A stretch of DNA of 54,531 nt from Bacteroidaceae bacterium (GTDB lineage Bacteria > Bacteroidota > Bacteroidia > Bacteroidales > Bacteroidaceae). Location of the stretch: positions 1-54,531 of the forward strand of contig JAFUWG010000050.1 in NCBI GenBank assembly GCA_017483605.1. The letters run 5' to 3'. The notes under the pieces were generated by a model. The model saw nothing but the letters and a program-made list of their open reading frames with translations. It was not told where the DNA came from and ran no database searches. The first letter of the stretch is position 1. Each line of letters opens with the position of its first letter. The position numbers and the translations under genes are program-made. Positions 45,030 to 54,217 of the stretch are shown in pieces.

Positions 45030-45413
45030 CTTTTTTATTTTTCTTTCACACGCCGCTTCTCTTTTTAGGCATTTTTAATGAATCTGTACCTCGCACAGCC
45101 CTCCGCCACGATATATACAGCCTCCGCCAATCGATAATCGCTTCTTAGAGGCTGCGAGAGTCCTTATTCAGAGACCATGGGGCTCGTACAATAGGGATAG
45201 AAGGTAGTCAAAATCCGATTTTGTCAACACAAAGACAGATGTTTCGCCACAACCTTCCATATAAAACTACAATTATTTCAGGTTTTTTCCTTCTTTTTTG
45301 TTCCTTTCCCAAAATCTCCGTACCATTGACTTCGTCGTTATCGCTTGCGCTTTCGCAACTATATGGAGAAAGAACGTAATTTCGCTCGACAATAAAAATA
45401 AATGCCAATTTAT
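45030..45413. other. Gap without recognised gene
   Basis: About 380 bases, AT-rich and with irregular composition, at the left edge of the accessory island. Short open frames on the minus strand (for example about 45208-45461) have no protein-like features. I see no clear terminator, repeat or RNA here. It is probably the junction of inserted DNA with the lipoprotein gene's upstream region. Confidence 0.4.
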
Positions 45414-45444
45414 TTTGTACTGTCCTCGCTTATTCGTACCTTTG
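45414..45444 (+). promoter_or_regulatory. Promoter of RNA cassette copy 1
   Basis: TTTG (45414-45417), 19 bases, TACCTTTG (45437-45444): textbook Bacteroidetes promoter. Transcription would begin near 45450, at the start of the conserved repeat. Confidence 0.75.
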
Positions 45445-45540
45445 TCCCTGCATCCACCCACATAGTGCTACCCAACGAGCGGGACAAGCCGATGGGTGGA
45501 GCACAACATATAAAAGGCACTACTGACACTTTGTTTTGGG
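45445..45540 (+). ncRNA. Structured RNA cassette, copy 1 (leader of ORF6N gene)
   Basis: About 96 bases, roughly 85-90% identical to 46472-46566. Conserved complementary segments are TCCACCCA with TGGGTGGA, GTGC with GCAC, and GTCCC with GGGAC. TCCACCCA lies outside and TGGGTGGA inside the GTGC/GCAC stem, so the pairs interleave as a pseudoknot. The distal hairpin that looks like a terminator in copy 2 is weakened here (GGCACTACTGACACTTT), which would let transcription run into the ORF6N gene 11 bases downstream. Confidence 0.6.
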
Positions 45541-45551
45541 CTTTTGACTAA

Positions 45552-46379
45552 ATGCAAGAGAACGAGATAATACTATATCAACCCAATGATGCCATTCGCT
45601 TGGAAGTGAGGATGGTCGATGAGTCCGTGTGGCTCACGCAACAGCAGATTGCAGAGTTGTTCGGGGTAAAACAGCCTGCCATTTCAAAACACTTGAACAA
45701 TATCTTCAAAAGCGGAGAGTTGGATGAGAATTCTGTTCATTCCATTTTGGAATATACTGCCGCTGACGGGAAACAATACAAGACCAAATTCTATAATCTC
45801 GATGCCATACTGTCTGTCGGTTATCGCGTCAACAGCATCAACGCCACCATGTTCCGCAAATGGGCAAACAGTGTTTTGAAAGAATATCTGCTCAAAGGTT
45901 ATTCTGTCAACCAGCGGTTCGAACGGCTTGAGCAAAGAGTGACTCGAACGGAAGAGAAGATTGATTTCTTTGTACGAACCTCGCTTCCACCCGTTGAAGG
46001 GGTCTTTTTTGACGGGCAGATTTACGATGCCTACGAATTGGCCAGCCGACTGGTGAAGAGCGCCCAAAAGAGAATCATCCTGATTGACAATTATATTGAC
46101 GAGAGTGTACTAACCCTTCTCGACAAGCGGAATGATGGGGTCACTGCCGAAATATACACCCTGCAGATTACACCTCAGTTGCAACTCGACATCCAGCGGC
46201 ATGACAGTCAATATACACCCATCCCCGTTCATGTACTTACAGCATCTCACGACCGCTTCCTCCTGCTCGATGATGACGTCTACCATATTGGTGCCAGCAT
46301 CAAAGACCTCGGGAAACGTTGGTTCGCTATCATGAAGATGCATGACACAAAATCTGATGACATTTTAAGCCACTTGTAA
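45552..46379 (+). CDS. ORF6N/RhuM-like protein with phospholipase-D-like C-terminus
   Basis: A 275-residue protein. The N-terminal half has a DNA-binding-like segment (VWLTQQQIAELFGVKQPAIS then KHLNNIF, about 26-52) and YNLDAILSVGYRVNS, as in RhuM/ORF6N phage-type proteins. A short coiled coil follows (about 120-145). The C-terminal half (about 165-275) resembles a PLD-superfamily unit: ILIDNYIDESVLTLL and HDRFLLLDDDVYHIGASIKD, where HDRF stands in place of the catalytic HxK and two aspartates follow. Such proteins often accompany restriction-modification loci. The ATG is 11 bases after the RNA cassette. The function is unknown; a nucleic-acid-binding role is inferred. Confidence 0.8.
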   Translation: MQENEIILYQPNDAIRLEVRMVDESVWLTQQQIAELFGVKQPAISKHLNNIFKSGELDENSVHSILEYTAADGKQYKTKFYNLDAILSVGYRVNSINATMFRKWANSVLKEYLLKGYSVNQRFERLEQRVTRTEEKIDFFVRTSLPPVEGVFFDGQIYDAYELASRLVKSAQKRIILIDNYIDESVLTLLDKRNDGVTAEIYTLQITPQLQLDIQRHDSQYTPIPVHVLTASHDRFLLLDDDVYHIGASIKDLGKRWFAIMKMHDTKSDDILSHL

Positions 46380-46441
46380 GGCATTCTCTTGAAAAATCCA
46401 TGCTTTTTTCTGGAGAAACAACTCAAAATTGCCCTGACACG

Positions 46442-46471
46442 ATTGTGTTAGGGATTTTTTTTGTACCTTTG
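46442..46471 (+). promoter_or_regulatory. Promoter of RNA cassette copy 2
   Basis: ATTG (46442-46445), 18 bases, TACCTTTG (46464-46471). The -7 element is part of the repeated sequence; the -33 region is not, and is a weaker match than in copy 1. Confidence 0.6.
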
Positions 46472-46566
46472 TCCCTGCATCCACCCACATAGTGCAGCCC
46501 GACGAGCGGGACCAGCCGATGGGTGGAGCACTACATATTAAAAGGCGTTACTGACGCTTTGTTTTT
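46472..46566 (+). ncRNA. Structured RNA cassette, copy 2
   Basis: The same interleaved complementary segments as copy 1, with an additional good hairpin CCCG-ACGAG-CGGG. It ends in AAAGGCGTTACTGACGCTTT (arms AAAG-CGT / ACG-CTTT with one bulged G) followed by GTTTTT, a plausible intrinsic terminator. A stand-alone transcript of about 95 bases is predicted. The identity of this RNA is unknown to me. Confidence 0.6.
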
Positions 46567-46590
46567 GGCATCTGAAACACCACTTTCAAA

Positions 46591-46743
46591 TTGCAAATCA
46601 AGAACAATGCAGAGGTGATGCTCATGGGAGTGTAGTATATGCACATCCCAAGTGTGCAGAGGGTTATTGTGCCCTCATGCACACTTTAGGGTGTTCAATA
46701 TACTTCCTTGCGTGGGTGTTTGACTCTGTCCTGTTATTTGCAA
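46591..46743 (+). ncRNA. Long rod-shaped hairpin, possible RNA gene
   Basis: Nested complementary blocks give one long imperfect hairpin: TTGCAAAT (46591) with ATTTGCAA (46736); CAGAG (46610) with CTCTG (46724); AGTATAT (46634) with ATATACT (46698); and an apical stem AGTGTGCA-GAGGG (46651) with CCCTC-A-TGCACACT (46672). Internal loops separate them. Overall shape recalls 6S RNA, but I do not recognise the sequence. It lies 25 bases after RNA cassette copy 2, so it might be a longer form of that transcript. A weak hairpin with GTCTTTTT ends near 46797. Confidence 0.45.
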
Positions 46744-46921
46744 GGTTGTGGTGACCTCAGATGCGAACAGGCAGATGTTAAGCACCTGCGTCTTTTTATG
46801 TCGTTACTTAAATTATATAACAGTTCGTACAGGGTGCTTGCGAACAACAATAAAAAGAAAACTAACTGAAAAAGGAATAACATAGCGTCTTTTGCATCCT
46901 TGGTTGACTGATTAACCAGAA

Positions 46922-47050
46922 TTACGACTTTATGAACACATCAGCCAGGCAAGCAATTGGATGTTTACGCTCATACGGGCGTGGACAGTTGGATTGTTGT
47001 CTGATGTGGGTCGTCGTAAGCCTTGGTTAAACACATCTTCTTCCACGCCC
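46922..47050 (+). promoter_or_regulatory. Structured leader of the restriction-modification operon
   Basis: Nested pairs TTACGAC (46922) / GTCGTAA (47013), CACATCAG (46937) / CTGATGTG (47001), and GTTTACGC (46963) / GCGTGGAC (46979, with G-U pairs) form a rod. The same GGGCGTGGA (46977-46985) is also perfectly complementary to TCCACGCCC (47042-47050), which is followed by CCTTTTC. The two folds are mutually exclusive, as in an attenuator. No promoter was confidently placed here. Confidence 0.4.
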
Positions 47051-47078
47051 CCTTTTCAAAACGAAGAGAGGGCTTTTT

Positions 47079-48101
47079 ATGTCAAAGAAGATAATTAGAG
47101 TTTTTGAAGGTTTTGCAGGTTATGGCGGAGGTTCTTTTGGCTTTAAACGGCTGAAAGAAAGAATGCCCGAGATTGATTATGAAGTAATAGGCTATTCCGA
47201 GTTTGACAAATATGCATCGGAATTATATGATGCCAATCACAAAGATAAGAACGGCAAACCACTGAAAAATTGGGGCGATATCACAAAAATAATTCCAGAA
47301 GAACTTCCCAATTTCGACATGTTCATGGGAGGTTTCCCATGTCAACCTTTTTCGTCTGCAGGAATGCAAATGGGGACAGAAGATCCTTATGGAAGGGGGA
47401 CAATGTTAGGACATATAATACGTATTTGCAAGGTGAAGAAACCGACATACATCTTTTTAGAGAATGTGAAAGGGTTTACACATGGAAAATTTCAGCCAAT
47501 TCATGACCAGTTGATAAAAGATCTGAGAGAAATGGGATATGGCGATGAACCACTTGTTAAAGCAGTTCTAAACTCTAAAGATTATGGAATCCCTCAAAAT
47601 AGAGAACGGCTCTGGATGTTTGCACAAATGGGAGGTCTTCCTGACAATTTCAGCATGACACCTCCTCCAATTGAATCAAATATAAAGATGGCTGATTTCT
47701 TGGACTTAAACCCAGAGAAAGCACTATATCTATCTGATGCTCAGATTGAACATCTGAAAATAAAACATCATATAGATTCTTTTGTCGTTGACACACCGCT
47801 ATGTTTTGATGTCTACAACAAGAAAATTAAAAGGGATGGATATTGTATTACTATCACTCAACCTGAGCACAACAGCCTGCGAGTTGTTGAGACTCCTAAG
47901 AAGGATGGCAAAGAAATCGTTCGTAAGATGTCAGTTCACGAACAATTCAGACTTATGGGGTTTAGAATTTCTAGAGACTTAAAAGAATGTGAAATAGATT
48001 TCGCCAACCACTCATATTCTCAATTGTCAAAACGAGCAGGTAACGGTTGGGACGTCAATCTCGTTGGAATACTATTAACCCATATATTCAAACAATTATG
48101 A
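47079..48101 (+). CDS. DNA (cytosine-5-)-methyltransferase
   Basis: A 340-residue m5C methyltransferase. Motif I FEGFAGYGGGSFGFKRL (about 9-25, S-adenosylmethionine binding); motif IV GGFPCQPFSSAG with the catalytic Cys88; motif VI ENVKGF (128-133); motif VIII QNRERLWMFA (173-182); a small target-recognition region (about 185-275); motifs IX-X MSVHEQFRLMGF and AGNGWDVNLVG. It protects host DNA from the restriction genes that follow. Its stop overlaps the ATG of the next gene (ATGA). The recognition sequence cannot be read. Base composition is more AT-rich than in the flanking core genes, consistent with transfer. Confidence 0.95.
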   Translation: MSKKIIRVFEGFAGYGGGSFGFKRLKERMPEIDYEVIGYSEFDKYASELYDANHKDKNGKPLKNWGDITKIIPEELPNFDMFMGGFPCQPFSSAGMQMGTEDPYGRGTMLGHIIRICKVKKPTYIFLENVKGFTHGKFQPIHDQLIKDLREMGYGDEPLVKAVLNSKDYGIPQNRERLWMFAQMGGLPDNFSMTPPPIESNIKMADFLDLNPEKALYLSDAQIEHLKIKHHIDSFVVDTPLCFDVYNKKIKRDGYCITITQPEHNSLRVVETPKKDGKEIVRKMSVHEQFRLMGFRISRDLKECEIDFANHSYSQLSKRAGNGWDVNLVGILLTHIFKQL

Positions 48102-49912
48102 AAATAGATTTAGGTTCTTTTGCATTCGGATCAACCATTTCGTCTGGTGGTAACACCCCATCATGGGGCACATCACTTGGTCAAATTAAACCTGACCTCA
48201 AACTTACTTATCCAGGGTATGACAATATTGTAATTGGAATGGTATACAAATCCATTCCAGTAGATAAAGTATATATTCCTTTAGGAAAAGGTGGACATAT
48301 ATGCAATAGTCTTGAAGATGAAGGCATCCAACTTGCTGCCCTATTTGATAAAGTATATGTAAATGAGGTAAGGGTGAATGCCCCTTTCATTATGCTAATA
48401 TACAAAGAGGATTCCAATAGTTGGGCTGGAAGAAAAACATTAAAATATAATACAAAAATAGAATATCGAAGAGGGAAGAATGATATTGTTTATAACTCTG
48501 ACTTCATAAATGCAGCAAGAGAGGCACTACAACTTGCAGACGATGCCTGTTGGGTCATAAGTGATATCTTTATCTTGAATCAAGATGAATTGCATATGAT
48601 AGCAGGCATCGTGAATCCGTATCAATCAGAGACCTTCCCAACTGCAGATATACGCAAAGCAGCATTTATTGATGCAATAAAAACCACATACGACGAGAAC
48701 CCACATTTCAAACAAAAATATTCTGATGAGGCTATTAATAGTTTACCAAGACACGCTATTATTCCTCTGCCTGTTTCTCCTTATCGTCCCTTCATTACCG
48801 CCATCCGCACAAAACCCTTTATCTTGCTCGCTGGTATATCAGGTACAGGCAAATCACGTATTGTAAGGAAGTTAGCACAGGTAACGGATGATATAGACCA
48901 GTTCGAGAATGAGGATGACAGATGGAGACTACAAAGACCTGCAAACTTTGAACTGATTCAGGTGAAACCAAACTGGCACAACTCAATGGATGTGGTGGGA
49001 TTCAAGTCGAACATCAATGGGGAACACTATGAGTTTACTCCTTTCGTGGACTTTATCGTGAAGGCTTGGTGCTATCAAGATACACCGTTCTTCCTGTGCC
49101 TTGACGAAATGAACTTGGCTCCCGTAGAAGAATACTTTGCAGAGTTTCTGAGTGCGATAGAGAGTCGAAGTATTGGTGAGGACGGCGAGTTTGAGACTGA
49201 CCCGATTATCAAGCCATTTGACAATTTTGGAGCAGAACTTTCAGGAATGATGATGCACCATTTTGTGGAAATGGGTTATGATATTCCAAATGATGTGGAG
49301 AACAGATTGAGGAAGAAAGGACTGACACTGCCCAAGAACCTGATTGTGATGGGAACGGTGAATATGGATGAGACAACATTCTCGTTCTCTCGAAAAGTGC
49401 TCGACAGAGCGATGTCAATAGAAATGAACGAGGTGGACTATGACGGATTCATCGAAGGAAGAACGGAGTATAACATTCCACGGCTGGTAGAGCACAACGA
49501 CTTATTGGTGAATCGCCCCATTTCAGCACAAGAGGTAAAAAACAGCATTGAGGCACAATCGGTGATGGACTTCCTGAAAGGCGTGAATGAACTGTTGGAA
49601 GGGACACCGTTCAAGTTAGGCTATCGTGCCGCCAACGAGGCAATCCTGTATGTGGCTGCTGACAAGGCAATAGGTGCAGACAACATTCAGACGGCACTCG
49701 ATGACTTTACGCTGATGAAGATACTGAGCCGCATAGAAGGCGATGATTCGAAACTCGTCACCAAAGATGGAAACAAGTTGCTGGACGAATTGTATGATTT
49801 GCTAAAGAAAGATGATATCTTCGGAACATTAGCAAAGAGCAAGTCGCTGGCTAAACTCGACAGTATGAGAAAGACGCTGAAACGCGACCACTTCGTGTCG
49901 TTCTGGGGATGA
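48098..49912 (+). CDS. McrB-like AAA+ restriction ATPase/GTPase
   Basis: A 604-residue protein. The N-terminal 220 residues (unrecognised, probably DNA-recognising) precede an AAA+ motor: Walker A LLAGISGTGKSR (about 244-255), Walker B FFLCLDEMNLAPVEEY (about 331-346), and sensor VMGTVNMDETTFSFSRKVLD with the arginine finger. The McrB N-x-x-D-type nucleotide signature is represented by VNMDE. ATG start overlaps the methyltransferase stop. It would translocate on DNA and activate the McrC-like nuclease encoded 55 bases downstream. Confidence 0.9.
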   Translation: MKIDLGSFAFGSTISSGGNTPSWGTSLGQIKPDLKLTYPGYDNIVIGMVYKSIPVDKVYIPLGKGGHICNSLEDEGIQLAALFDKVYVNEVRVNAPFIMLIYKEDSNSWAGRKTLKYNTKIEYRRGKNDIVYNSDFINAAREALQLADDACWVISDIFILNQDELHMIAGIVNPYQSETFPTADIRKAAFIDAIKTTYDENPHFKQKYSDEAINSLPRHAIIPLPVSPYRPFITAIRTKPFILLAGISGTGKSRIVRKLAQVTDDIDQFENEDDRWRLQRPANFELIQVKPNWHNSMDVVGFKSNINGEHYEFTPFVDFIVKAWCYQDTPFFLCLDEMNLAPVEEYFAEFLSAIESRSIGEDGEFETDPIIKPFDNFGAELSGMMMHHFVEMGYDIPNDVENRLRKKGLTLPKNLIVMGTVNMDETTFSFSRKVLDRAMSIEMNEVDYDGFIEGRTEYNIPRLVEHNDLLVNRPISAQEVKNSIEAQSVMDFLKGVNELLEGTPFKLGYRAANEAILYVAADKAIGADNIQTALDDFTLMKILSRIEGDDSKLVTKDGNKLLDELYDLLKKDDIFGTLAKSKSLAKLDSMRKTLKRDHFVSFWG

Positions 49913-49967: not shown

Positions 49968-52322
49968 ATGACAGGATTCAGTTCGTTTGAAGTGAGAAAC
50001 GGGGATGTGAGCCTGCGCATCTCATGCCTGAACTATGGCAAGCATCTCCGTGCAGCCATACAGAACCTAATGGCTGATGAATATGTTGTGAATAGTCCGC
50101 TGTATGCTGTGTATGCCACAGAGCAAGAGGACACCACGTTCTATTTCGACAACGAGGCGACAGAGGAGAAAGACTTTCAGCGGTTGGCGATTCTCTTTGA
50201 AAACACAGAATACCCTATCCGAGTGAAACCACTGCATGATGGTGTCACGATTGAGGGACTGTACATAGCAGGCCATTCGTCGGATGCAGCATCGGATGCC
50301 AGCGATGAGGACTCGTTGCTGTTTGGAACATTGAACTTCAAGAATCAGGTGGGTCGCACGGATTTTAAGGTGGTTTATCATGCGAATGGTGAACAACGGA
50401 GCATGGACTTCCGCACGGAGGTGCTGAGTTACAAGTTGGACTATCGCACCGACATGCAGCAGATTATCAACGACATCGAGCAGGAGTACTCAATGCTGAG
50501 TTATTCATTCTTGAAACAGACCTATCTGAGTTTCAAGGCTAACGACAGCGAGAGCACAGACCTGATATGGTGGCAGATATTCTGCCAGTGCTTTGATGAA
50601 ATCATTAAAGCCACAAAGACCATTATCAACAACCCCAAGCGTAGGCTGAAAGCAGAGGTGCACTATGAAAGAGCGGAACGCCTAAGAAATCTTTCTGCTG
50701 ATGTAGAGAATGAATTCGCACTCTTCAAGAATGACCCACACCATTTATACAGGACGGAAGAAATGTTCCTGTCAAAAGATACCGTTGAGAACCGCTTTCT
50801 GAAATATGCCATCAAGGAGATGCACAGACGTTTCTCCATCGTGAGGGAGCACATCAAGAACAGCCTGAAGGTGGGTGACGAGCGGATTTCTCATCGCATC
50901 AGCGAGATGGACGATACATTGTTGAGACTGAGCAACCACGCTTTCTTCCGACAGATTGGGCAGTTCAAGGGCTTTACGCAGGACTCGTTAGTGATGAAGC
51001 GTGCCCGTGGGTATAGCGATATTTACAAGAATTGGCTCTTGCTACAATGCGGCTATGAGTTGGAGGACAGCATCAACCACTTGGAAGTGAAGGACATCTC
51101 AGAACTGTACGAGATTTGGTGCTTTATCAAGGTGAAGAACATGGTGCAGCAGATACTGGGCAAAGAGACTACGGCAAACTCGTCAGGAAGAGAACTGACA
51201 TCGGGATTTATCCGCCAGTTGGTATATGGTTCAAAGTCGGAAGTCATCTTCAAGAAAGGCGACGTGGAACTGGCTACAGTCACTTACAATGCACAAGTAG
51301 AAAAGGAGGATGCAAGAATAGAGTCTGCTATTGACGACACCCGAACTTTCACCACGATTCAACGGCCTGATATTGTGTTGAGGCTTTCGAAGAAGAGCGA
51401 ACAGGACATCGTCTATACCTATCTGTTTGATGCCAAGTATCGTCTGAATGACAGACGTATCGAGGGTAAGGATGTGCCGCCAGAGGATGCCATCAATCAA
51501 ATGCATCGCTATAGGGACGCCATCTACTATACAGAAGGACAGAGTGACGAGCAACTGAAAAAGGAAATTATTGGTGGCTATGTACTCTACCCGGGCAATA
51601 TGGGGAAGAAAGAATATGAAGATTCATATTATCATCACTCGATAGAGAAGGTGGGAATAGGTGCGTTCCCTTTGAGACCTGGTACTATGAAGATAGACGA
51701 AGACGGGAACCTGTATGTTGACCCATTGAGCAGCGAGTCGGTGCTGTATGAACAGATTAAAACTTGGATGGAGGAAGGTGACCGGCGTTCAAAATTATTA
51801 GAGAAAGTCATTCCTCAGAAAGGACTTTCGTATGAGCGGGACGCCTCAGCCAACAATTGGAAAACACGATACTATCTGGAGCGTTACCCTGATGCAGATA
51901 TACTGATTGGCTGTTATCACGACCAAGCACATTTAAAGTGGATACTTTCGAAAGACCACAAAGAAGAGGCGATGTACAACATTCGTCTTGGCAGCGAGAG
52001 GGATGGAGCGTTTCCCAGAGAGTTCTTCAACAAGAAGAATGTCAAGTTCGTGGTGCTCTACGAAGAAGGGCTTGAGCATGAGAACAGATACCTTGCCTTT
52101 CGAGTCAATGGGATAAAGGAAATGCGACCCTCGGACATGATAAAAGCAGGCTATCCTCGTCAACCCCAATACAGTTATGAATGCTTCATCTTAGATGAGG
52201 AAGTTGAGATTGGCTCATACGATATCTTCCGTATTGTATCACGTGCCAGAACTGATAAAGACTACAAGGATTATACTCCGATATTCCATCGCTGTGCAGA
52301 AATGTTAGAGTATCGGAAATGA
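49968..52322 (+). CDS. McrC-like nuclease (DUF2357, PD-(D/E)xK)
   Basis: A 784-residue protein. A helical and beta N-terminal region (1-400), including LLLQCGYELEDSINHLEVKD then YEIWCFIKV, matches DUF2357/McrC-type partners. The nuclease core carries RPDIVLRL (Asp468), YLFDAKYRL (Asp488, Lys490) and QMHRYRDAIY (511-520). A further 180 residues (600-784, with YPDADILIGCYHDQAHLKWI and VKFVVLYEEGLEHENRYLAF) form an additional domain not found in E. coli McrC, which has about 350 residues. It is the DNA-cleaving subunit of the three-gene system. Confidence 0.9.
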   Translation: MTGFSSFEVRNGDVSLRISCLNYGKHLRAAIQNLMADEYVVNSPLYAVYATEQEDTTFYFDNEATEEKDFQRLAILFENTEYPIRVKPLHDGVTIEGLYIAGHSSDAASDASDEDSLLFGTLNFKNQVGRTDFKVVYHANGEQRSMDFRTEVLSYKLDYRTDMQQIINDIEQEYSMLSYSFLKQTYLSFKANDSESTDLIWWQIFCQCFDEIIKATKTIINNPKRRLKAEVHYERAERLRNLSADVENEFALFKNDPHHLYRTEEMFLSKDTVENRFLKYAIKEMHRRFSIVREHIKNSLKVGDERISHRISEMDDTLLRLSNHAFFRQIGQFKGFTQDSLVMKRARGYSDIYKNWLLLQCGYELEDSINHLEVKDISELYEIWCFIKVKNMVQQILGKETTANSSGRELTSGFIRQLVYGSKSEVIFKKGDVELATVTYNAQVEKEDARIESAIDDTRTFTTIQRPDIVLRLSKKSEQDIVYTYLFDAKYRLNDRRIEGKDVPPEDAINQMHRYRDAIYYTEGQSDEQLKKEIIGGYVLYPGNMGKKEYEDSYYHHSIEKVGIGAFPLRPGTMKIDEDGNLYVDPLSSESVLYEQIKTWMEEGDRRSKLLEKVIPQKGLSYERDASANNWKTRYYLERYPDADILIGCYHDQAHLKWILSKDHKEEAMYNIRLGSERDGAFPREFFNKKNVKFVVLYEEGLEHENRYLAFRVNGIKEMRPSDMIKAGYPRQPQYSYECFILDEEVEIGSYDIFRIVSRARTDKDYKDYTPIFHRCAEMLEYRK

Positions 52323-53092: not shown

Positions 53093-54217
53093 TTACCTTG
53101 ATACCCACATGGCAAAGAATTGGTCGTATGCCATGTAAGCATTGTCTTCTTGGGTGATGAAGTCCTTGTCGAGGAGGGCTTTGAGGGCTGACATCACGCT
53201 GCTCGCCGACCACAGGTGGTATTTTTTGATGAATGCACCGCCTGTGACATTCCTCGCCTTGCCTTCCGCCACAATGGAGCGGAATACAATTCGCTGTTTT
53301 TCTGACATTTGAGAGAGTTGCATCTCATAGTTTTCAGAGTAGAGGTCGAGCAGATAGTTGATGGCCTCGTCTACCATCTCCGGGGTACAGTTGTCCCCTA
53401 TGTTAGTACGGAAATACAGCACGTTCATCACCCGTTGCAGGCACGACGTAACTCCGCTGAAGCGGCTGTACACCTCGTGTACCGTCGCCTCTTCCAGCCT
53501 CTTCCCGTTCTTCTCAAACAGCCGTATGGCAAACTCCGTGTATTTGTCTTCCGAAATGGGTGCCAGCCCCATCGTGATGACCGACTGGTAAAAAGGCCGC
53601 GATGGTGACGTGAAAATTTCACCCATCAAGTGACGCTTGGAGCCCGCAAAGATGAACGTGGCATTCAAACAACGCTGAATGTAGGTGCGGAGTGCCGCTT
53701 CGATGTTCTGTCCGTCGGGGTATTGTGTAATCTGCTGAAACTCATCAATCGCCACAAGACAAGGCTTGTCTGCTGATGACAGATAACTGAAAATCTCGTC
53801 CAGCGTGACTGCAGGATTCTCCATGTTACCAAGTCCGATACTCCAAACGGGATTGCCGTTGATGTCGAAAGAGATTTCCTGCTGCAACGACTTCAGAGCC
53901 GAGACAAACGCCTCCCACACCTTACGGCCCCGAGGCTTCAACTCCTCCAGAATCGCCTTGCCAAACACATTCACAAAGTCTCGCAACGACCCTGTGGCGT
54001 AGATGTCTATCATGAAGGTGTAGTACCGCCCTTTGATTTCCGGCTGATTGAAACAATGATGTATCAAGTCTGTTTTCCCCAACCGACGCGGGGAAATCAA
54101 CGCCATATTGTTCTCGTTGGTCAGCAACTGCACCAAGTCTTGGGTCTCTTTCACACGGTCGCAGAAATACTCCGCACCCCCATAGCCTTTTGTCACAAAC
54201 GGATTTACCATATACAT
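53093..54217 (-). CDS. AAA family ATPase (archaeal-ATPase type)
   Basis: A 374-residue P-loop ATPase. N-terminal MVNPFVTKGYGGAEYFCDRV; Walker A is represented by ISPRRLGKTDLIHHCF (about 41-56); Walker B by PCLVAIDEFQQITQYP; sensor by FIFAGSKRHLMGEIFTSPSR. The C-terminal winged helix (about 300-374) ends in AYDQFFAMWVSR. This group is frequent in Bacteroidetes genomes, often beside mobile elements; its function is not established. A minus-strand TAACTTTG (54245-54238) lies upstream. A second ATG six bases downstream of the first is also possible as a start. Confidence 0.85.
   Translation of the reverse strand: MYMVNPFVTKGYGGAEYFCDRVKETQDLVQLLTNENNMALISPRRLGKTDLIHHCFNQPEIKGRYYTFMIDIYATGSLRDFVNVFGKAILEELKPRGRKVWEAFVSALKSLQQEISFDINGNPVWSIGLGNMENPAVTLDEIFSYLSSADKPCLVAIDEFQQITQYPDGQNIEAALRTYIQRCLNATFIFAGSKRHLMGEIFTSPSRPFYQSVITMGLAPISEDKYTEFAIRLFEKNGKRLEEATVHEVYSRFSGVTSCLQRVMNVLYFRTNIGDNCTPEMVDEAINYLLDLYSENYEMQLSQMSEKQRIVFRSIVAEGKARNVTGGAFIKKYHLWSASSVMSALKALLDKDFITQEDNAYMAYDQFFAMWVSR

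Follow-up and report, generated by a model that had tools for sequence, protein, structure and literature searches.

A candidate family of switch-like leader RNAs precedes a restriction-modification operon and other accessory genes in Bacteroidales

Introduction

In a contig of a Bacteroidaceae bacterium (the window, i.e., the whole 54,531-nt stretch of DNA that was analysed), two direct repeats flank a gene for a RhuM-family protein, and their position raises the question of whether repeat and gene make up an RNA–protein module or whether the repeat is part of something else. The initial annotation had described each repeat as an RNA cassette of about 100 nt with its own promoter and a pseudoknot-like fold, and had likened the arrangement to type III toxin-antitoxin systems.

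Results

Two direct repeats and the RhuM gene

The two direct copies are clearly present: positions 45430-45515 and 46457-46542 are 91% identical over 86 nt without a gap, and their continuation (45511-45547 and 46539-46575) is 84% identical over 37 nt. Both carry the common promoter element that had been recognized in them, TACCTTTG (45437-45444 in copy 1 and 46464-46471 in copy 2, forward strand), which we take to be a Bacteroidetes -7 element and whose general form, TAnnTTTG, stands at the matching place in 124 of 145 full-length relatives. The repeat occurs above chance, copy 2 being matched by blastn in 77 of 301 Bacteroidaceae genomes at E <= 0.01 (the window's own genome included, and the weakest matches short); within the window's own genome, blastn at E <= 0.001 found no further repeat copy.

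The interleaved complementary segments ascribed to the repeat were retained only in part. Among 27 relatives, neither crossing pair was complete in a single one (GTCCC/GGGAC kept a mean fraction of 0.23 of its pairs, and GTGC/GCAC a mean fraction of 0.45), so that the proposed pseudoknot looks like a chance match; what holds is the TCCACCCA/TGGGTGGA stem (termed here D1), with a mean of 0.66 of its pairs kept and all eight kept in one of the 27. Similarly, the terminator assigned to the end of copy 2 corresponds to a terminator-like hairpin (D2, 46542-46561), but the conserved sequence does not end there and continues to about 46845, and then to 47078.

Copy 1, as had been noted, lacks three pairs of copy 2's second hairpin and runs into the RhuM gene (45552-46379, forward strand), whose product matches PF13310 and, over nearly its full length, the PADLOC candidate PDC-S05 (E 3.1e-123). 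It consists of D1 and a weakened D2 only (45449-45533, forward strand), without the domains D3 to D6 seen in copy 2 and its relatives, and we infer that it is a truncated relic, fused to the RhuM gene and now supplying the promoter and 5' end of that gene. Five other leaders (L217, L218, L221, L227, and L228) seem by eye to be internally deleted or truncated, and represent natural variants. Both matching phage records, and all 20 plasmid records listed out of 46 that matched, aligned with the RhuM coding part of the query, and an exact 16-base word of D1, TCCACCCACATAGTGC, occurs in three viral contigs (L032, L033, and L034).

An RNA-like repeat directly before a gene whose product is a phage-defence candidate is what a type III toxin-antitoxin system, or another RNA–protein module of repeat RNA and RhuM, would look like. 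The protein had been judged not to be ToxN-like, and its profile matches bear this out, as they include no ToxN/CptN/TenpN-like endoribonuclease; the repeat comparison found no tandem repeat array of the kind known from type III antitoxin RNAs. With the proposed pairing kept in none of the 27 relatives, and with copy 1 being a truncated form of a leader found before many genes unrelated to one another, we consider such a module extremely improbable. The expectation that other genes of this kind would carry the same RNA upstream also failed at locus L321, where a RhuM gene (product 74.5% identical over 263 residues) directly precedes a full leader, with no D2 word found on its own 5' side.

Anatomy of the predicted leader RNA

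When 28 loci were lined up, conservation reached far beyond the reported element, running from the promoter across five domains, the last of them the long hairpin D5 with its T run, and on to the small hairpin D6. In the window, the full predicted leader RNA (D1 to D6, 374 nt, of what we term subfamily I) spans 46472-46845 on the forward strand, its start being placed by the promoter word. It opens with the D1 hairpin (46476-46530, stem TGC.ATCCACCCA / TGGGTGGAGCA, with a variable tip), followed by the 5' strand of a possible closing helix, P0 (CTACATA, 46531-46537), which would pair with 46797-46803 (P0') with one mismatch, and by D2, which is strongly conserved and has a T run behind it. The D3 segment (46568-46598) holds three blocks, a (GCATCTGA, 46568-46575), k (CACCAC, 46578-46583), and b (TTGCAAAT, 46591-46598). 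Next come a long hairpin, D4 (46623-46708, its end approximate), and a second terminator-like hairpin, D5 (46711-46790), with a T run read from the sequence at 46791-46797. The strands of D5 are, in order, x (46711-46721), b' (ATTTGCAA, 46736-46743), k' (GTGGTG, 46748-46753), a' (TCAGATGC, 46757-46764), and y (46780-46790), of which the three inner ones are the counterparts of b, k, and a in D3. The last hairpin, D6 (46823-46845), holds in its loop a strand, z (46831-46839), that is complementary to y.

Covariation links D3 to D5 and D5 to D6

Relatives were gathered with two covariance models, R1 (the D4-D5 region, from 24 sequences of subfamily I) and R2 (D5 alone, from 13 sequences of diverged leaders, subfamily II). 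We fetched 100 of 106 further R1 matches listed, leaving out those with E values above about 2.6e-8 as well as two with lower values, and from a total of 147 loci obtained 145 aligned leaders after dropping L092 and L182, which had too little upstream sequence. Covariation in these 145 copies was scored by a G-test with APC, for which 20 null alignments simulated along the tree of the copies served as the reference; the script was our own and follows the idea of R-scape without being R-scape itself.

Sixteen column pairs reached E <= 0.05, of which 15 link D3 to D5 (several representing one and the same helix through adjacent or register-shifted columns), the remaining one being a local pair in D2. 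At the level of four-pair helices, E 0.00 was obtained for the apical loops k-k' (e.g., CUACCACA with UGUGGUAG), for both segments of a-a' (the 5' flank of D3 with D5), for b-b' (the 3' flank of D3 with D5), for y-z (in which the D6 loop pairs with the 3' strand of D5), for two segments of the D5 stem, and for the D4 tip. Because D3 and D6 lie outside the model with which the copies were found, their covariation is not built in by the search, whereas that of D4 and D5 partly is. Covariation among homologues, which had been named as a check on the repeat RNA, supports the D3-D5 pairing, which lies downstream of the proposed pseudoknot.

In the same 145 copies, covariation was not detected for the apical stem of D5 (E 1.15), for P0 (E 20), for lower D4 (E 152), or for D1 and D2 as helices (E in the thousands); D2 and lower D4 hardly vary, D2 being too conserved to covary, and D1 varies and aligns poorly. 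A weak test with coarse classes gave p=0.056 for pairing between D2 and the T run. When the 42 copies of subfamily II were taken apart, a-a' and k-k' again reached E 0.00, and b-b' (E 2.4), y-z (E 17), and the D5 stem (E 23) were not significant. Leaders of this subfamily (e.g., L343-L375) have GCGT as the 5' strand of D2, with a second possible partner, ATGC, behind D3 (E 6.3), which is perhaps a third switch element. Mismatches also point to the molecule that folds: summed over ten helices without y-z, G-U combinations outnumber A-C combinations by 850 to 218, and in y-z by 85 to 13, as expected for an RNA of the forward strand.

Private pairing and competing folds

Each leader is matched to itself. 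The predicted energy of the D3-D5 duplex averages -29.6 kcal/mol with a copy's own partner as against -12.9 kcal/mol with swapped partners; a copy's own D5 ranks first among the 145 for 111 copies and within the first five for 139, and where copies share a genome with another copy (n=95), the own partner beats those of the paralogues in 91. The duplex of the window reaches -29.1 kcal/mol and rank 1, and a poor D3-D5 match was seen in four of the 145 (L139, L080, L040, and L052). The y-z complementarity shows a modest excess, with a run of at least six pairs in 128 of 145 copies as against 68% of swapped partners.

Pairing of D3 with the top of D5 follows a nested order (a-k-b with b'-k'-a'), and the lower D5 stem, x-y, crosses these helices. 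Because each of the two arms comprises about 20 pairs, with almost no linker, the full D3-D5 duplex and x-y can hardly coexist on topological grounds, and minimum-energy folds conform to this: at least 10 D3-D5 pairs form in 106 of 145, at least 10 x-y pairs in 36, and both in none. For the window, the predicted fold reaches -149.8 kcal/mol, as against -143.8 kcal/mol with D5 folded alone. These predictions show two sets of helices that would be hard to form together, namely D5 closed by x-y and D3 with the top of D5, and since both covary, both seem to be kept by selection. The y strand has two possible partners, x and z, and a strand that would choose between them is, as far as primary sequence can tell, the anatomy of a switch.

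A free-standing small RNA that ends at the T run of D5 (about 325 nt) and acts in trans, with the gene behind it separately controlled, would equally have its own promoter word, a terminator-like D5, and an elaborate fold. However, z lies behind that T run and covaries with y, in 87 of 145 loci the first ORF begins 40-110 nt past the end of the model match, a point within the T run, and the letters of D3 and D5 vary between copies in a way that suits pairing in cis, so that we regard a small RNA of this type as distinctly unlikely.

Distribution of the family

At E <= 1e-4, R1 found matches in 109 of 399 Bacteroidaceae genomes and, at E <= 1e-3 in an order-wide sample, in 7 of 295, that is, in the window's own genome and in six genomes from other families (6 of 294 others). 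Subfamily II was more frequent, R2 matching 165 of 251 Bacteroidaceae genomes, with at least 17 matches in one of them; in a phylum-wide sample of 247 genomes, R2 matched the window's own genome alone. That genome holds two R1 copies (E < 1e-11) and four more by R2 (E < 1e-5). Because few candidates were scored per genome (2 with blastn, 6 with R1 in Bacteroidaceae, 9 with R1 order-wide, and 17 in the R2 searches), and because stricter filters applied over 40 genomes, all of these counts are lower bounds.

Of 71 blastn matches compared, from the upper part of the list, 29 had no R1 match behind them, a figure that does not count truncated copies, as 15 of the 20 that we fetched were full, diverged leaders of subfamily II by R2, and the remaining five appear by eye to be shortened or to carry internal deletions. 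A scan of named genomes with the D2 word returned 101 stretches; the 80 of them listed belong to Prevotella and further members of the Bacteroidales, with rumen, reticulum, or omasum as the source of many, and include P. communis E15-14.

Several copies per genome, a sporadic distribution, and truncated copies are also what a mobile repeat of the MITE or REP type would leave behind, spreading by itself and folding as DNA rather than as RNA. Against such a repeat, the promoter word stands at the same end in 124 of 145 relatives, and the longest frame 300-700 nt behind the leader lies on the same strand in 137 of the 143 loci with enough sequence; together with the excess of G-U over A-C and the pairing retained by diverged copies, this makes a mobile repeat highly improbable.

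Genes and modules behind the leader

In the window, the leader precedes a restriction-modification operon, all on the forward strand, that consists of a C5-cytosine DNA methyltransferase (47079-48101, PF00145), an AAA protein (48047-49912, whose start may lie later) that is McrB-like by neighbourhood (with a weak AAA_5 match below the Pfam cut-off and a match to PADLOC PDC-M26A), and a DUF2357/PD-(D/E)XK nuclease that is McrC-like (49968-52322). The operon presumably resembles LlaJI-type systems. Behind it, on the reverse strand, lies a probable ATPase gene (53093-54217), in whose product the stretch ISPRRLGKTDL looks by eye like a nucleotide-binding motif.

First genes were chosen mechanically as ORFs on the leader strand, which may include wrong picks (L140 and L173 are doubtful); with L156 and L159 lacking an ORF of 100 aa, this gave 145 proteins, cut to 300 aa, a set that differs from the 145 aligned leaders. 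C5-methyltransferases are the largest class, at 36 of 145 loci, and other restriction genes include three D12 adenine methyltransferases, three TdeIII endonucleases, and a few more. Other first-gene products comprise five MBOAT proteins, six acyltransferase-3 proteins, and seven BspA-type repeat proteins. Altogether the first ORFs span 61 Pfam families, and since Pfam and NCBIfam tallies cover the 25 families with the most members, many ORFs fall outside them. The predicted leaders are a family carried by gut and rumen Bacteroidales, and the accessory genes behind them include those for phage defence, capsule, and cell surface.

Between leader and methyltransferase, the window contains a second structured leader, module B (46883-47078, forward strand), with a hairpin and a T run by the ATG and two helices (TAAC/GTTA and ACGA/TCGT) that covary at E 0.00. 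All 46 unique copies of module B in the leader loci precede a C5-methyltransferase-like frame within 700 nt; as these loci were collected via the leader, the joint occurrence of the two is not in itself a finding. An independent search recovered module B in 13 of 201 genomes, with an R1 leader in front in 8 of the 13. Of the five copies without an R1 leader, which were read by eye, three have the promoter word no more than about 110 nt upstream, a fourth is cut off where its contig ends, and in the fifth the word stands some 500 nt away; one of the five precedes a C5-methyltransferase and the others precede other or unassigned proteins, so that the association in 46 of 46 holds for leader-borne copies only. 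A further conserved block between leader and next gene, module C (AACTGGAAATC ... GCGTTTCCAGTC), was noticed in L006, L009, L015, L023, and L321.

Nine of the 145 first ORFs match the UpxY antiterminator model, five of them above NCBI's cut-off. One of the UpxY-type genes with a leader in front belongs to the window's own genome (L177, G000 contig C40:56645-56819), and five UpxY-type leaders (L146, L164, L174, L177, and L180) share a block, CAATAGCG.CTATTTC ... GTCATTG.CGTTATTGGA, behind D5. That UpxY genes follow the leader would suit a processive-antitermination RNA whose fold loads a NusG-type (UpxY-like) factor on RNA polymerase, as would the strong conservation of D2, which a protein site would show, and UpxY has been reported to keep transcription of its capsule operon from ending prematurely in the untranslated region (PMC7315117). 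The capsule leaders of Bacteroides on which UpxY acts come from the same bacterial order as ours, are likewise untranslated, with premature termination reported, and precede accessory surface genes. However, when 30 UpxY-like loci with the best matches to the L177 protein were searched, the leader was present at two by R1 (the one of the window's own genome and that of its nearest relative) and at none more by R2, although L177 had been chosen as query for having a leader, and most leaders do not have UpxY as their first gene. The leader is thus not the UpxY leader itself, and loading of an antitermination factor is unlikely for the family at large, while being a fair rival for a subset of leaders.

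Comparison with catalogued RNAs

Across the whole window, Rfam 15 at gathering score returned two tRNAs only. In 45380-47080 it gave six matches at E <= 5, all below gathering scores, the best being 6A RNA (E 0.035, 46817-46871) and SNORA9 (E 0.062, 46639-46772, 22.7 of 85 bits), and 12 relatives gave two matches at E <= 3 (E 1.7 and 2.6). With no match above threshold, a known Rfam family is ruled out as the identity of the leader. The FopS RNAs are another multicopy RNA family of Bacteroidaceae, small RNAs of about 65-70 nt with sigma-ABfr promoters, a single-stranded 5' part, a seed termed R1, and one terminator hairpin, which act on SusC messages (PMC11697453); by that description they differ from the leader, which is several times longer and folds otherwise, and are ruled out as its identity.

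Antitermination RNAs such as JUMPstart and EAR (epsC) are leaders of surface-polysaccharide operons, and in this respect resemble the leader, but neither appeared in our Rfam scans. Both are listed with Rfam numbers in an earlier survey (PMC2864571). That survey and two others (PMC8040213 and PMC11109978) hold, in the parts covered, nothing that matches the leader, and a search of freely accessible papers found no description of it, an earlier mention elsewhere being conceivable. The leader is of a known kind, a leader switch, and forms a family for which we found no catalogue entry. The suggestion of a new RNA family or defence module thus stands with regard to the RNA, which has no Rfam 15 match, has real long-range pairing, and is often beside defence-type genes; it does not stand with regard to its partner, since the RNA goes with the methyltransferase operon and with many further genes, and the RhuM gene neighbours a truncated copy.

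Discussion

We favour, with moderate confidence, the reading that the leader is a bistable attenuator of the restriction-modification operon. As read from the DNA, promoter, structured leader, terminator-like hairpin, and gene follow one another in the order of an attenuator, and the terminator-like hairpin and a competing fold that exclude each other appear to be under selection, with D5 missing significance in subfamily II. Attenuators and riboswitch expression platforms likewise combine, upstream of a gene and behind their own promoter, a terminator-like hairpin with a competing fold. The leader differs from them in that the strands that compete with its terminator bind the top and the 3' half of that hairpin, in part from downstream, in that one leader family serves unrelated genes, and in that the pairing letters are private to each copy; because the downstream genes are unrelated, they give no hint of a metabolite, as might be sought for a riboswitch.

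Under the attenuator reading, D5, once formed, would stop transcription or keep the message shut. A kissing contact between the loops of D3 and D5 would start the capture of the D5 top from two closed hairpins, and once D3 had captured it and D6 held the freed y strand, the message would read on and stay open, so that D3-D5 and y-z would together mark the ON state. Kissing antisense pairs of the CopA/CopT type also begin with a loop-loop contact that is extended by flanking helices, with the difference that the leader would carry the two partners on a single transcript. Pairing of y with z cannot decide termination at the T run, since z, like P0', is encoded behind it, and some of the control may act on translation or on message stability. 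The private D3-D5 letters would allow paralogous leaders to work in one cell without cross-pairing, and module B would add a second control in methyltransferase operons.

Since restriction, capsule, and surface genes all stand behind the same kind of leader, it may respond to a single condition common to them, for which phage attack, growth state, and a transcription factor are candidates. A more far-reaching and speculative version, to which we give a rather low probability, is that the leaders form a common permission gate for phage-facing genes of Bacteroidales, in which one signal, with phage attack or a NusG-type factor bound at D2 as the likeliest, would flip unrelated restriction, capsule, and adhesin operons, the private D3-D5 codes would stop interference between paralogues, and module B would be a second gate sensing the methyltransferase.

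The leader represents a large family of structured RNAs for which two rival folds are predicted and whose subfamily II is present in two thirds of the sampled Bacteroidaceae genomes, and its pairing supplies exact base pairs that are open to testing. Module B, for its part, would be an RNA element associated with operons for DNA methyltransferases and with related operons. If the attenuator reading is true, one type of RNA control would extend, in gut and rumen Bacteroidales, over the genes for restriction-modification, capsule, and cell surface, which would bear on how these bacteria ration phage defences that are costly or dangerous.
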